Made by a program: the position numbers and the translations under genes
The notes under the pieces: model-generated
Told to the model about the DNA's origin: nothing
What the model saw: the letters and a program-made list of their open reading frames with translations, nothing else
Databases searched by the model: none
Shown here: positions 2,851-54,194 of the stretch, piece after piece
Layout: every line of letters starts with the position of its first letter
Numbering within the stretch: the first letter of the stretch is position 1
DNA from: Reticulascus tulasneorum
Lineage: Eukaryota; Ascomycota; Sordariomycetes; Glomerellales; Reticulascaceae
DNA length: 64,000 bases
Assembly: GCA_001557505.1 (NCBI GenBank)
Contig: LSAX01000009.1
Span: 620,001 to 684,000, forward strand
Direction of reading: 5' to 3'

Positions 2851-3480
2851 AATGACGCCCATACTCATTTAGAAGGTAGTCAACAAAACATAAGCTTGGT
2901 TATTAGGTATTATTACACCTCCAGCCTGTTAATGGAAATATGGTGTGCGTCAGCTGCCGAATCCTTTTAGAAGCGCGTTTATGTGGAGATGTTAAATCGA
3001 CACAGTCTTATTGCTTTGCATCAAGAGTTGACCACTGGACTTCCACCGCGTGGTAAATTGTTAGCTTCGGGGTTTTAGACACCCAACTTACAAGAGACAG
3101 AATCATATCAACCTATAGTAGTACAAAAGTCGTCGCGAAACGATGCTCTGCTGTCGCAGGTTCACTATAATGTAGCAGCAGACTATAAATTTCATATCTT
3201 TGCAGATAATGACGTGCCATAACCTGGAATATCATCTACGGTTGACTGGCATCGTACATCACTCTATGTCTTACTCTTCCATATGTTGCGCCAGTTTAGT
3301 CGATATGGCGAGACATCCCGATATCGGACTCAAAATATCCACATTTACCTCAGTTTTGTCAGTCCCGTTTTGAAGCGGCGATTTTGTTTGCTGCTACGTC
3401 TTTGGTTTTCGAAACTAGACAGCAGTTCCAGCATCTCCATGATCTGGGCTGGAAAATAATCATCCCTCACGGTGTACAAA
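2851..3480. other. Intergenic, no gene recognised
   Basis: About 630 bp between two plus-strand genes. It has many stops in all frames and moderately AT-rich patches. I see no coding motif, tRNA or repeat. It should contain the 3' end of the TLC gene and the promoter of the thioesterase gene. Confidence 0.5.
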
Positions 3481-3987
3481 ATGTCTGGCACCTTATCTTC
3501 AGCTACGGGTCACCGAGTGGCCAACATGCCAATCGACCCGGACGCGGAAATCTTTACACACGTCACAAACTATATTTCCACTAGAGGAACGGCCTCGCCA
3601 ATCTACGCATTCCTATTCAATGAGGGCTTGACGCTCACGCATGCCTCGAAGGGCCTCGTCATAGCACGCCTAGTTCTTGCCGCGCCCCATCTCAATTCCT
3701 CGGGCGGACTCCACGGTGGTGTATCGTCAACGATCGTGGATTGGGCTGGGGGGCTGGCTATAGCGGCATGGGATCTCCGGAACGCAACTGGTGTGAGCGT
3801 GGACATCAATGTGAGCTACATTTCAAGTGCGAGACTGGGCGACGAGATTGAGATTGAGGGACGAGTGGAGAAGGTTGGAGGAAGCCTCGCATTTACCTCA
3901 GTAGGGATCTGGAAGGTCGATGCAGATAGCAAGAGAGGCACATTGGTATCAACCGGTAGGCATACAAAATTCGTGAGAAGCAGATGA
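3481..3987 (+). CDS. Hotdog-fold acyl-CoA thioesterase-like protein (PaaI/ACOT13 type)
   Basis: Single-exon 168-aa protein. The diagnostic piece is SGGLHGGVSSTIVDWAGGLA, the HGG(V/A)...D motif of the PaaI/THEM2 thioesterases, in which the residues after HGG lie at the active site of a dimer. It is followed by VSVDINVSYISSARLGDEIEIEGRV, the typical central beta-strand pattern of the hotdog fold. Length agrees with the family (130-180 aa). It likely hydrolyses an acyl-CoA thioester; the chain type cannot be predicted. The start ATG at 3481 is preferred over one three codons upstream. It converges with the SnoaL-like gene on the other strand. Confidence 0.82.
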   Translation: MSGTLSSATGHRVANMPIDPDAEIFTHVTNYISTRGTASPIYAFLFNEGLTLTHASKGLVIARLVLAAPHLNSSGGLHGGVSSTIVDWAGGLAIAAWDLRNATGVSVDINVSYISSARLGDEIEIEGRVEKVGGSLAFTSVGIWKVDADSKRGTLVSTGRHTKFVRSR

Positions 3988-4186
3988 GACGTCATTTTGG
4001 AGTTGTCTGGCAGCGCGATTCCGATATAGACTACATCTGTAAACATTTTCTTGAGCCTTGTCATGCAATCATGTCCTTACACCACAGTCGTGAAGCTCCT
4101 CTTCCAACACAGGCTGCAGCTGCGTATCGCTGTTCCAATCTTATTGGCCTCAAAACGTTTATCTAGCGTTGACTCGCTGGTTATGC

Positions 4187-4681
4187 TTACTTCGACCCCA
4201 GCCCTGTGATTACTTTCCTTCGATTCGAAATGGTGATGGGGTCCATAAAAGTCCTCAGCTCTCTAGCTTTCAGATCTACAGATTCTCTAGCCACTGAACT
4301 CAGCTCGATGATGTTGAACTCTTTGACCTTTAGCTCCTGTGCTTCCGAATCGTCTTTGAATACAGTGACGCTAGTCGACTCGTACATCACGGTCCGAGTC
4401 CCATCATTGTTCTCAATATCCCAAGCGACATGAATGTCATGCTCAAATTTGAGCAGCATCTTGCCTCTCATTTCAAACATTGGAATGAGTTCCTGGGCAG
4501 TTTGAGGCGATTTGCCATTGATAATGAATGTAGCATCAGCCAAAAGAAAGCTGGTGAAAGGCCGCGCATTGGAGTCTATTGAATCCAAGGCAGGAATAAA
4601 TTCCTTGAGAAATAGAAGACCGGGCGATGCGTCCGAGGGTATGGCATCGCCAGAACCGTGGTGAATGTTTGCATGAGACAT
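4187..4681 (-). CDS. SnoaL/NTF2-like small protein
   Basis: Single-exon 164-aa protein without signal peptide or membrane segment. The arrangement of one long N-terminal helix region, a FLLADATFIINGKSP segment, then strands such as HDIHVAWDIENNDGTRTVMYE and ELKVKEFNIIEL resembles the cone-shaped NTF2-like (SnoaL) fold. Fungal members are often unassigned, and some act as cyclases or isomerases in secondary metabolism. No catalytic residue set can be assigned here. It lies 112 bp downstream of the end of the MBOAT gene on the same strand, so the two may be functionally linked. The fold assignment rests on pattern only. Confidence 0.6.
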   Translation of the reverse strand: MSHANIHHGSGDAIPSDASPGLLFLKEFIPALDSIDSNARPFTSFLLADATFIINGKSPQTAQELIPMFEMRGKMLLKFEHDIHVAWDIENNDGTRTVMYESTSVTVFKDDSEAQELKVKEFNIIELSSVARESVDLKARELRTFMDPITISNRRKVITGLGSK

Positions 4682-4793
4682 TTTGAGAAGGCTCTGTTGG
4701 ATTGTATTTCTACAATTTGATGTCGGAAGGTGGTGTTGAAGTCTTCGTTCTGTTCTTCTTCACAGGAGGGGTTGGCAACGCAACGGGGAAATA

Positions 4794-6198
4794 TTATACC
4801 GTCTTATCATCGAATAAGATTGTTTGGTTAGGCCCAGGTCCTATGAATGTATTAGTGTCATCTTACTTTCCCCTCAGTTCAGTTCAGGTGATACTTACCA
4901 GAGTGTTCATAGAAGTAGCGAGTTGATTGTCCGAAACTGCTAGTGTTGAAGAAAACGTGATCGAAAATCTGCATACCTAAACCCTCAGCCACTGACTGAC
5001 TTTTCGGCTGACTTTTGTATGACCCTTGATGCATCTGTCCTTCATTCCCAGGAATGCAACGAGCCCAGGCAAACTCAGCCTTCGGCACACTCCAAAACAA
5101 GAAGATAAAGACCCAGCAGAACCCAAATGCTTTGGCAGCAACCGATTCCCGTTGACTCAGCTCTCTTCCAGGATATAGGCATTTTCTCGCGATGAACTGC
5201 AACACTATCTCGCCAACAACGGCCGCGCAATTCTGCATATACCACGCGATCTCCGTCCAAAAGGCACACGGGTATCCCCTTTCTACAGCCATGACACCGT
5301 GTAGAAGTCCACTGAAGGCAAAGATAAGAACGATGAAACCAAGACGACGAATGGGACCGAGCCTCCCTCTTGGAGGAACCCTCAAGATAAATCTAGTGAA
5401 GGTGGCGAACGTGCGATAGAAGATTCTGTCGAAGAACTTGGACCACATTCGGCCCACCGAGTAAGCCTGAGCGAACGACCCAAAGAGAGGCGGCCATTCC
5501 TCCGGTTCGTCAAGTCCGATTCCGACAAAAAAGCATGAGAAAGCACTATGCCACTTCGTATAGAGAACGTAGGCACCCCACGTCGTGTTGACTACTGCGT
5601 ACGCTCGGAATATGGTTTCTCGAAGCGTAACTTCGGAGAGTCGTCTGAAGTAATGTTGCTTCGACGGGTGATAATCTGCAAAAGTTACTTGAAAGAATTG
5701 GTTGAAGACGAGATGCTCGTTCTGATGAACATAATGTAGGACCAACGCCAGAAGTAAACGTCTTGCCACAAATCTCAGACGCCGTTGCCAAATGGCCTTG
5801 GGAAAATGTGGCTCTGACGACCTTTCGCTGTCCTTGACAGACAAATCCAGGACACCGGGTGCAATGTACTTCGTTCCGATGCAGCGGGCATTGAACATTG
5901 TCTTGTATGTTCCAAGTGTTTTGCGCCTCCAGCAACTGGACTCCAAATACGGGTGGCGATAATCATCCAAAAGGAGCATTGCACAATGCCCCAACGTCCA
6001 GATTAGTACCCCCTTGGCAATTGAGTCATGTGTGTGATCTGAGAAGCCTGCCAGCGAGAGGTCGCGAAAGATAGCCCCTACGAGGAAAGCCATGATGAGC
6101 ACCAAGTATGGTCTGAAGCGTCTCGGCCCGTTCCAAGCCACACCACATGTAGTCAGCCCGACGGCCATCTTAAACAAAATTCGGAGGATAACCCGCAT
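4794..6198 (-). CDS. MBOAT wax-synthase-like O-acyltransferase
   Basis: Polytopic membrane protein, 448 aa as modelled, of the fungal wax-synthase-like acyltransferase group. Members transfer acyl or acetyl groups to hydroxyls, several of them in meroterpenoid or other secondary pathways. Seen: a W-containing loop (SVGRMWSKFFDRIFYRTF) where relatives have FWGRRWHQ, and the conserved membrane histidine in AFSGLLHGVMA. Exons 6198-4899 and 4840-4794; intron 4841-4898 starts GTAAGT, has CACTAATAC and ends CATAG, giving a C-terminus GPGPNQTILFDDKTV. Without this intron the protein would end a few residues earlier in HSGKYHLN. The frame is open up to 6336 but the first true ATG is at 6198. The 46 upstream codons are hydrophobic (SLQTGLLILPL), so an unrecognised 5' exon ending near 6250 is possible. 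The motif loop lacks the usual histidine, so activity is uncertain. Confidence 0.75.
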
Positions 6199-51399: not shown

Positions 51400-54194
51400 A
51401 TGAACGTCTTCTCCGTTGCTTCAGTCGCATCCGACTGTACGAATATCTCGCATCGCGCGCTATCGGCCTCTATCGAACTTGATGCAATTACCCAAAGGCT
51501 GGAAAGAAGCGACCCCAATCTCCAGGAGCTCGGCGCCCTGTCAATACAGTTGCAGGAATTCAAACATAATGTAGACAACTTGCACCGCACCCTAGACCAT
51601 TCTAGCGTCATCTCGGGTGGGGTGCAGGCATTACTCACTCAATCTCTGAGATCATGTGATGAGGCGGCAGCAGTTATGGGCAAGCAGGTTATGAGGCTTG
51701 GACCGGAGACACTCAAGGCTCTCAAAGTCGAGGCCGTAGCCGTGTATCACGAGCTTCTCGTTGCCAACTCGGAGCTCTTCCAATTCTTAGGCAGGCAGCT
51801 TTCCATGTGGGGAATCTTTACCATGAAATCTGATGATATCTCCGCTAACATTTAATAGTACACAAAGAGAGGCACAAGATAGCATGCTAGAGAACTCCGA
51901 TAGTCAACAGATTATACAGAGAGCCCAAAGCAGTTCTCGAAATGCTTTCCAGGAAACAAATATCCTTCTTGACGAGATAACCCCCGGCAGCGGAGGCGCT
52001 CCAGGCCCTGCGCAAACTACTGCAGAGCCTCCGCCTTATGGGCCCTCCCAACCCTCCCCCTCAAAGCAGGCGGCGTATGCATTCCCTATTGGTCTGTCAT
52101 CGCTGACCAATTCATTCAAAGCCATGACAGCGAGCCTCCGAGCTAAGCCTGAGCCATTTGTTGTAAGTCAAAACACCCCCATTCCGCCACCCCCCCCATT
52201 CCGCCACAGTGCACCACCAAAAAGCTGGGTCAATATCTCAACAACCACTTAGTTCTAAATATCTAGATTTTCATGGTAAATCTAGTATATTAATAAAAGA
52301 TAGATTCCAAGAGGGGTGCAAAATCGGACTGAAATTGGCCGAGATATTCAACAGCAAAGATATTTACATAGTAAATCCGTACCACCCCAACTTCACCAAA
52401 CAAGGAATTAAAATTGAATTGAAAATCTAGTATAATATTAGAGGCCAAGAAAAGCTCTAGGCATATTTCTATTTTGTGGTAGCTAAAATGGTCGAAATCT
52501 AAGCTCTAAAATAAGAAATCCCCTATTAAAATTTAGTAAGGAAAATACTAAACTTTCTATAGCATTTTGATCCATTTAGTTACCACAAAATAAAAATATT
52601 CCCAGAGCTTCTCTTGGCCTCTAATATTATATTAGATTTTCAATTCAATTTTAATTCCTTGTTTGGTGAAGTTGGGGTGGTACGGATTTACTATGTAAAT
52701 ATCTTTGCTGTTGAATATCTCGGCCAATTTCAGTCCGATTTTGCACCCCTTTTGGAATCTATCTTCTATTAATATATTAGATTTACTATTAAAATCTTAA
52801 GTTGTTGAGTTAAACCCTTGTTGAGATATTGACCCTTGTAAATCTAGCTTTTTTGGTGGTTGCAGGGTGGCGGAATGGGGGGGGTGGCGGAATGGGGGTG
52901 TTTTGACTTACCTCTATGCCAGGCCACAACTAGAGGAGAAATCTCACAGATGAAAGGACTCGTGGGGCAAGGCGTGAACATCAATGGGAGGAATGAAGAA
53001 GGCAACACTGCACTGATCTGCGCTATTCTCTCGCACCAGGACGATGCGATGAAATTCCTGCTCAATGCCGGAGCGGACCATACTGCCAAGGACTCTACGA
53101 AGAAGATTCCACCGCTGTTCCACGCTGCGTCTGTCGGAAACTTGAATGGTGCCAGACTGTTACTTAGCAAGGGCGCTAATGTGAACGAAAAGAGTTGGGC
53201 AGGGCAGCCGTTCTTCGTCGATGTTGTGGCGAGCGACAACATTGACGGCATTAAGTTCTGCCTCGAGCTTGGAGCTAGCGCCAATACAAGAAGCATCTCC
53301 GGACGGCAGGTTCTCGCACAAGCAGTCCTAAAAGGCAATATAAACGCTGTCAAGCTCCTCTTACAGTACGGCGCGGATCCTAATGCGTACGATATCACTG
53401 GCTCGTCCCTGATATCTACAGCCATCGCACAAGATCATAACGACCTAGTTCAGCTTCTACTAAGCTCAGGGGCAGATCCGAACTCGCGGACTTCGACTGG
53501 AGTGGCCATACTGGTTGAAGCAGTACAGAAAAATAAGCCACAGCTTGCCAAAGCTCTACTAGCGCGTGGTGCAAATGCCAATTCCCGAGACCTCTATGGC
53601 CAACTCATCATTCTGGCTGTGGCTAAGGATACCAATCTGCAGAAGAGCAGAAAGACCGAGTTCATACAGATGCTCCTTGCCCATGGAGCTACCCCTACAA
53701 CTACAGATTCATGGGGTGTTTCTGTGGTATGCCACGTCATCGGCGACGGGAACGTTGATCAATTGAAAGCATTGCTGGAACATGGCGCCGACGCTAACGC
53801 GATCATGAGTACTGGAGAGACTCTCCTTCTGTACGCTATGGATCATGAGTGGCAACCGCATGTGAAACTGCTTCTAAAGCATGGCGCAAACCCAAACACG
53901 GCGGATAAGAAGGGTCGGACGCCACTGATGCAGGCTCTCCAGAGCCAGGCGCCGGATCTCGTTCGATTGTTGAAACAACACGGTGCTGATGTTAACAAAC
54001 CCGGACAAATATCTCCGTTAGACTTTGCAAAGGCTTTGGGAAATAGGGAGGTGCTAGACTCGTTGGGTGTTAGCTTGCCGGGCCCGAGTCCAGCAGTAGC
54101 AGCTCGCGCCACGGCGCCTACAAGTCGCACTGAAGCGCCGCCGCGAGCTGAGTCTCCACCCCCTGGATATGAAATGATAGCGCCGAAAGGTTGA
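51400..54194 (+). CDS. Ankyrin-repeat protein, interrupted by a foldback element
   Basis: The 5' part has exons 51400-51806 and 51859 to at least 52162, coding a helical N-terminal domain like those heading fungal STAND/ankyrin proteins (MNVFSVASVASDCTNISHRA, LQEFKHNVDNLHRTLDH), then a proline/serine linker (AEPPPYGPSQPSP). The 3' part, 52911-54194, codes about ten ankyrin repeats (GNTALICAILSHQDDAMKFL, KLLLKHGANPNTADKKGRTP) and a proline-rich tail ending PPPGYEMIAPKG. A 743-bp mobile element separates them. Reading through it stops within about 30 codons. Removing it with one TA copy restores an unbroken frame, and splicing from the GTAAGT at 52163 to the CAG ending at 52922 is also in frame and loses five residues. 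Ankyrin arrays bind proteins; the domain order suggests a signalling or non-self-recognition role. Confidence 0.75.
52166..52908. mobile_element. 743-bp Fot1/pogo-like foldback MITE inside the ankyrin gene
   Basis: The ends are perfect 42-bp inverted repeats (52166-52207 and 52867-52908) starting AGTCAAAACACCCCC and containing two copies of CCCCCATTCCGCCAC. They continue as long imperfect arms (to about 52490 and from about 52573), so nearly the whole element folds on itself around an ~80-bp loop. A TA dinucleotide flanks each side (52164-52165, 52909-52910), the target duplication of Tc1/mariner-pogo elements; AGTCAA-type ends are those I know from fungal Fot1. No transposase frame is present, so it is non-autonomous. 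The interior is AT-rich, unlike the flanks. Confidence 0.85.

Follow-up and report, generated by a model that had tools for sequence, protein, structure and literature searches.

Rushforth and Anderson reportedly found in 1996 that Tc1 elements lying in exons of C. elegans are removed by splicing, and Menssen et al. are said to have described the same in 1990 for En/dSpm in exons of maize. In some introner families, the target duplication or an adjacent exon supplies part of the splice sites, some families alter the coding length, and the number of copies present as introns in a genome runs from 5 to more than 2000, depending on the family; the ascomycete introners are described as having neither terminal inverted repeats nor target duplications (PMC9860276). 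Tc1/mariner-type MITEs of Sclerotinia measure 481 to 813 nt (PMC4188875). In Hypoxylaceae, introns with inverted repeats of 45 to 55 nt are removed in vivo, removal having been confirmed for 31 of 36 stwintrons and 11 of 12 shortened introns (PMC8469720).

Here we analyze a foldback MITE in a 64,000-nt stretch of the Reticulascus tulasneorum genome (contig LSAX01000009.1, positions 620,001 to 684,000), referred to below as the window. The element, its TA target duplication, its family of relatives in the same genome, the ancestrally continuous ankyrin exon that it divides, and the frame arithmetic across it are shown here. The most probable explanation, in our judgment, is a recent insertion that breaks the gene, with partial splicing as a possibility. 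We infer that the insertion impairs the gene and that splicing, should it occur, is partial.

Anatomy and family of the element

The element occupies 743 bp (52166-52908, no strand assigned), and inspection of the sequence places its TA duplication at 52164-52165 and 52909-52910 on the plus strand. The terminal inverted repeats, at 52166-52207 (plus) and 52867-52908 (minus), are perfect over 42 bp, the first mismatch falling directly after base 42. Farther in, a left inner arm of 272 nt (52227-52498, plus) is 90% complementary to a right inner arm of the same length (52564-52835, minus), and 65 nt separate the two. Each end also contains short direct repeats, two copies of 15 or 17 nt with a spacing of 17 nt. 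Among frames of at least 60 aa, the longest lying wholly within this copy is 73 aa, so the copy is without a transposase. The window gave no Rfam match at the gathering threshold and no tRNA.

A search of the 42.8-Mb genome (35 contigs) found at least six copies, L001 to L006, with 99 to 100% identity over most or all of their length; one is 726 bp long and the rest are 742 to 744 bp. The window copy is 99.6% identical to two others and 99% identical to the remaining three; its alignment with the copy at C34:1362371 has 2 mismatches and 1 gap in 743 columns. The sequence-only reading had dated the insertion by its near-identical arms, an argument that fails: all six copies match themselves in reverse at 84 to 85%, and arm divergence is therefore a property of the family. 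The insertion is recent because the copies are nearly identical to one another.

The 26-bp end of the element, with up to 3 mismatches, has 34 matches in the genome (reversed control pattern, 0). Fifteen two-ended insertions, the window included, account for 29 of these; the remaining 5 were left as single ends with no partner assigned. TA stands on both sides of the window copy and of 13 other paired copies, as a TA target duplication would have it. Six of the 15 insertions are 1.81 to 1.89 kb long and share the same 26-bp end (0 to 3 mismatches), and two of these six (C35:792881 and C17:1217753; 1.86 to 1.89 kb) contain DDE_1 (PF03184) matches, both with stops. Because its ends are those of long elements with DDE_1 matches, the 743-bp element is best placed, from sequence, among the Fot1/pogo-type Tc1/mariner transposons, as a non-autonomous MITE.

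With the donor G included, a 15-base end pattern (up to 1 mismatch) has 27 matches (reversed control, 4), of which 4 lie away from the 26-bp end matches (C2:2929625, C12:4778093, C15:38854, and C35:1132619). Older, decayed intron copies were considered and rejected on the outcome of these end searches. A pattern search of the genome for a shorter variant, with 400 to 430 nt between GTAAGTCAA and TTGACTTA, found none.

One stop-free pogo/Fot1-like transposase frame was found, of 525 aa with DDE_1, in the locus L042 (2070-3647, contig C1). This element has AGTCAATTGG ends and inverted repeats of about 54 bp that are 87% alike, and three further places in the genome match it. It was rejected as the direct partner of the 743-bp MITE, the ends of the two differing after AGTCAA.

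The copies also differ in RIP-like bias. In the six short ones, (CpA+TpG)/(ApC+GpT) is 1.22 to 1.26 versus 1.29 for the window, and TpA/ApT is raised, at 0.92 to 0.95 versus 0.69, which amounts to little bias. In the six long relatives (L030 to L035), the two ratios extend from 1.02 and 1.05, a mild bias, to 0.39 and 1.31, a strong one, and GC falls as low as 0.205 (L034). The spread of the short copies may postdate the last round of RIP.

The interrupted exon and its potential splice signals

The ankyrin gene begins at a start codon at 51400. Its exon 1 (51400-51806, plus strand, as are all gene and splice features below) is an open reading frame 43% identical to the N terminus of the relative P0010 (E = 5e-26), with no Pfam match in that part. 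A candidate native intron 1 of 52 nt follows (51807-51858), recognized by its pattern (GTGGGG ... GCTAAC ... TAG), by frames that fit on both sides, and by flanking exons that match P0010. Exon 2 is divided by the element into an upstream part, 51859-52165, which includes one TA and matches P0010 as far as PEPFV (38% identity, E = 5e-16), and a downstream part, 52911-54194, which by Pfam (Ank_2, 3e-77) and alignment carries the ankyrin repeats to the stop codon.

Several comparisons bear on the state of the site before insertion. In P0010, the upstream match ends at PEPFV and passes directly into ALCQA with no break at the insertion site. An xxCQA motif with sequence continuing upstream is present in 42 of 59 relatives, a count biased by a search pattern that itself demands CQA. 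Three Xylariaceae relatives (P0043, P0050, and P0056) read KPEPFVVPLCQA, letter-identical to the empty-site reading of the window gene. Since these relatives run through unbroken, the insertion site belongs to a continuous exon. Those of the gene's best protein relatives that carry a name belong to Neonectria, Fusarium, Coniochaeta, and comparable fungi. With the flanks joined at a single TA, the frame is open for 540 codons. The sequence-only reading was thus correct about a 743-bp element with perfect 42-bp repeats and a TA duplication in an ankyrin coding exon, and about the frame that clean excision restores.

The same reading had pointed to splice signals at the element's borders, and these are present. 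The potential donor GTAAGT (52163-52168), the only plus-strand GTRNGT in 51858-53100, is made up of a host G, the duplicated TA, and AGT from the element. The potential acceptor, a CAG followed by G (52920-52922), is wholly host sequence and ends 12 bases past the right TA. Two potential branch motifs lie between them, TTGAC inside the right end (52903-52907) and CTTAC (52907-52911), which combines the element end, TA, and a host C; their A residues are 16 and 12 nt, respectively, before the last base of the CAG. These signals (GTAAGT, TTGAC/CTTAC, and CAG) follow the GT-branch-AG order of a U2 spliceosomal intron with fungal-like motifs. Splicing of 52163-52922 would join GTT to GCC, phase 0 to phase 0 as had been claimed, keeping the frame and removing V-P-L-C-Q. 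The cost had been put at only five residues; the number is right, the "only" an understatement, as an alignment of the window gene with 18 chosen relatives has the C invariant (19/19) and the Q kept in 18 of 19.

In the reading that we favor, a recent non-autonomous Fot1/pogo-type copy inserted at a TA in ankyrin exon 2. The layout follows from the fixed ends of the family: a G in front of the target TA turns AGTCAA into GTAAGT, and the opposite end contributes a TTGAC usable as a branch motif. At the window site, a host CAG happens to fall in frame. The default product would be a truncated protein: in unspliced RNA, the frame runs 28 codons into the element and then stops, ahead of the ankyrin repeats. 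Against an impaired gene, exon 2 shows no further stop or frame break, though none would be expected to have built up after so recent an insertion.

A possible but unlikely alternative is that 52163-52922 became a new intron of 760 nt at transposition and is spliced from most transcripts, giving a near-normal ankyrin protein minus VPLCQ. The near-optimal donor, the CAG|G acceptor, and the preserved frame speak for it, as do the branch motifs, both of which are attested as minor motifs in Fusarium (PMC5677156). The loss of an invariant C and a near-invariant Q speaks against it, and so does length: 760 nt compares with 52 nt for the gene's own intron 1 candidate and falls outside the 42 to 529 nt (median, 57) of 2022 Fusarium core-gene introns, a set that may not reflect the host's own distribution (PMC5677156). 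In those introns, CTRAY makes up 91% of branch sites. Among the three CTRAY motifs followed by YAG at the scanned distance in 52100-53100, none serves the CAG at 52922; one, at 52621, lies in the element and leads to a TAG inside it.

RNA structure bears on this alternative in both directions. Folding predictions for 51858-53300 and 52000-53050 put every base of the donor in a pair with 52906-52911 (probability about 1) and leave little of the acceptor free (mean unpaired, 0.21), which counts against splicing from the finished RNA. For nascent RNA that still lacks the right arm, the predicted unpaired share of the donor is 48 to 73%. The right end of the element reads like the 5' end of U1. 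Predicted binding to the donor is -10.7 kcal/mol for a 17-nt piece of the right end versus -5.4 kcal/mol for an 11-nt U1 end, the pieces differing in length. The pairing objection is not decisive, because the inverted-repeat introns of Hypoxylaceae are spliced in vivo (PMC8469720). The anatomy of the element allows splicing, and splicing itself is a prediction.

Other exonic insertions and chance controls

We compared 18 two-ended insertions, 15 with the ends of the window element and 3 of the L042 type. Seven of the 18 cross an open frame that is at least 90 codons long and leaves 15 or more codons to either side of the insertion, and three exonic insertions have homology on both sides: the window copy, L027, and L031. 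Of the six copies of the 743-bp MITE, two (window and L027) are exonic by two-sided homology, and a sense-oriented donor is present in the window copy alone; the other four were judged by open frames, with Pfam in addition for L024.

In L027 (C34:1362371-1363117; 3372-4117), the same MITE sits in a conserved exon for a protein of about 390 aa and unknown function, 82 to 83% identical to its closest relatives, one of them from Pyrenochaeta. The sequence continues through the insertion site in 14 of 19 relatives, the other 5 being unmatched by the search motif. The junction is CTAAGT, and because it provides no donor, the L027 gene looks broken; this copy speaks against introner membership.

L031 (C17:1217018-1218906, minus strand; 3519-5407) favors the intron reading. 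Here a 1885-bp relative lies inside a DUF6601 frame, with Pfam positions 57-170 matched before it and 184-222 after it, the downstream match standing exactly at the cutoff (27 bits). The layout is repeated as AAC|GTAAGT ... TTGACTTACTTTCATAG|G (GTAAGT, TTGAC, and TAG), the frame is kept, and 4 residues would be lost. The assignment as an exon rests on Pfam DUF6601 alone, since none of the 6 candidate protein relatives of the tested piece was significant. This gene may itself be broken, because Pfam positions 1-56 were unmatched in that piece.

Four further loci were kept out of the exonic count. L030 (2939-5417) has a long copy between an apparent upstream coding stretch and an ankyrin exon, with frames that do not match; the locus may be rearranged. 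Its Pfam match is on the downstream side, the side tested, and its upstream reading does not fit; a donor is present, and the only in-frame acceptor within 60 nt is GAG. L024, L035, and L044 cross open frames of 99 to 109 codons; Pfam was run on the two flanks of L024 and of L044 and on the downstream flank of L035, and matched none of these pieces. The genome search for same-ended copies proposed in the sequence-only reading yields 15 two-ended insertions, and the frame-keeping layout in two of the three homology-supported exonic insertions, the window included (two of four if L030 is counted).

How often such a layout arises by chance was estimated from 1565 TA sites in 39 mechanical open reading frames of at least 250 aa (window and L023 to L047), which may include frames of the elements. 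A G precedes the TA at 351 of these sites. A frame-keeping YAG after G-TA, at a cost of up to 18, 30, 45, or 60 nt, is available at 39, 69, 101, and 126 sites, respectively (2.5, 4.4, 6.5, and 8.1%). This chance rate of 2.5 to 8% per coding TA speaks for the gene-breaking reading. In a smaller control of 108 TA sites (three exons, two genes), the layout occurs at 3 if the YAG must lie within 20 nt and at 7 if up to 60 nt is allowed.

Two of three insertions with the layout is more than these rates predict, P being 0.002 to 0.018 at the background rate of G. Among the 36 ends of the 18 insertions, 17 have a G in front of the target TA, about twice the background of 24 to 26% (P = 0.002 to 0.004), and the family may thus prefer G-TA targets. 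At the observed G rate, P becomes 0.008 to 0.077 for two of three and 0.015 to 0.136 for two of four. The tests are post hoc with a tiny n, and because the window was itself picked for its layout, the enrichment is weaker without it: the layout is then present in one of two insertions, with P values of 0.05 to 0.16 (background G rate) and 0.10 to 0.31 (observed G rate). We regard the enrichment among exonic insertions as a lead, not a result.

Remaining readings and comparison with known systems

Two other outcomes of the insertion deserve mention. An ATG within the right terminal repeat (52875-52877) is in frame with the ankyrin exon and would give MGGVAEWGCFDL-PLCQATTR, so that the element could provide both transcription and a start codon for an N-terminally shortened protein with PLCQ and all ankyrin repeats intact; we think this improbable, the promoter being putative only and an outward frame fitting any coding target about 1 time in 3 by chance. 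That the gene had already lost its function, making the insertion neutral, is very improbable: the insertion does persist in the assembled strain and the genome has many ankyrin stretches (116 matches), but both parts of exon 2 are open, and no close paralogue was found that could serve as a backup, the next best genome match being 33% identical among the 98 of 203 candidates scored.

A recent gene-breaking insertion thus remains the preferred reading. A broader conjecture, which we put forward tentatively and consider doubtful, is that AGTCAA...TTGACT ends of Fot1/pogo-type elements harbor a donor and a branch site in latent form, that exonic insertions at G-TA start out as introns wherever a YAG follows within a few bases, and that surviving exonic copies are enriched for the layout. 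Ascomycetes would then have a route of intron gain through elements with terminal inverted repeats and target duplications. If the window element is spliced, an ascomycete intron gain would have been caught at its first step, with target duplication, terminal repeats, and source family intact, and exonic Fot1-like insertions with RNA data could be checked against a simple rule, G-TA with an in-frame YAG close by. Otherwise it is an ordinary gene-breaking MITE, and a warning that to gene predictors AGTCAA-ended transposons make convincing false introns. The element is real and of an ordinary kind; the splice layout is striking but unproven.

Removal of exonic transposons by splicing, reported for Tc1 and dSpm, speaks for the new-intron alternative. 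As is said of Tc1 and En/dSpm, the window element has splice signals at or beside its ends within an exon; unlike those cases, reportedly demonstrated on transcripts, splicing here is a prediction. The element resembles the Sclerotinia MITEs in size, in being non-autonomous, and in having the inverted ends of Tc1/mariner elements of about 1.8 to 1.9 kb, and here a TA duplication is present; it differs from them in having foldback arms over nearly its whole length and in lying in an exon at a GTA target (PMC4188875). With the symmetrical sister (stw)introns of Hypoxylaceae it shares terminal inverted repeats that include splice signals (45 to 55 nt there); those introns are without target duplications, far shorter (e.g., 207 nt), seamless, and confirmed in RNA (PMC8469720).

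Like introners, the window element is non-autonomous, with terminal inverted repeats and a target duplication. Its putative donor combines host G, duplicated TA, and element AGT, its putative acceptor is all host sequence, and some described introner families likewise recruit splice sites in part from the duplication and the flanking exon; unlike the described families, its layout occurs in one of two exonic copies of the MITE and is not recurrent (PMC9860276). Membership in an introner family was rejected, no recurrent exonic copies with the layout having been found. The idea of a foldback MITE turned intron therefore stands insofar as the layout would permit splicing and L031 repeats it, and falls short of an introner, the more so with L027 lacking a donor. 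A literature search by title, with subscription papers mostly outside it, found no report of a Fot1-type MITE acting as an intron. The splicing-out mechanism, if real, is known elsewhere; for an ascomycete element with terminal inverted repeats and a target duplication it would, by the literature searched, be new.
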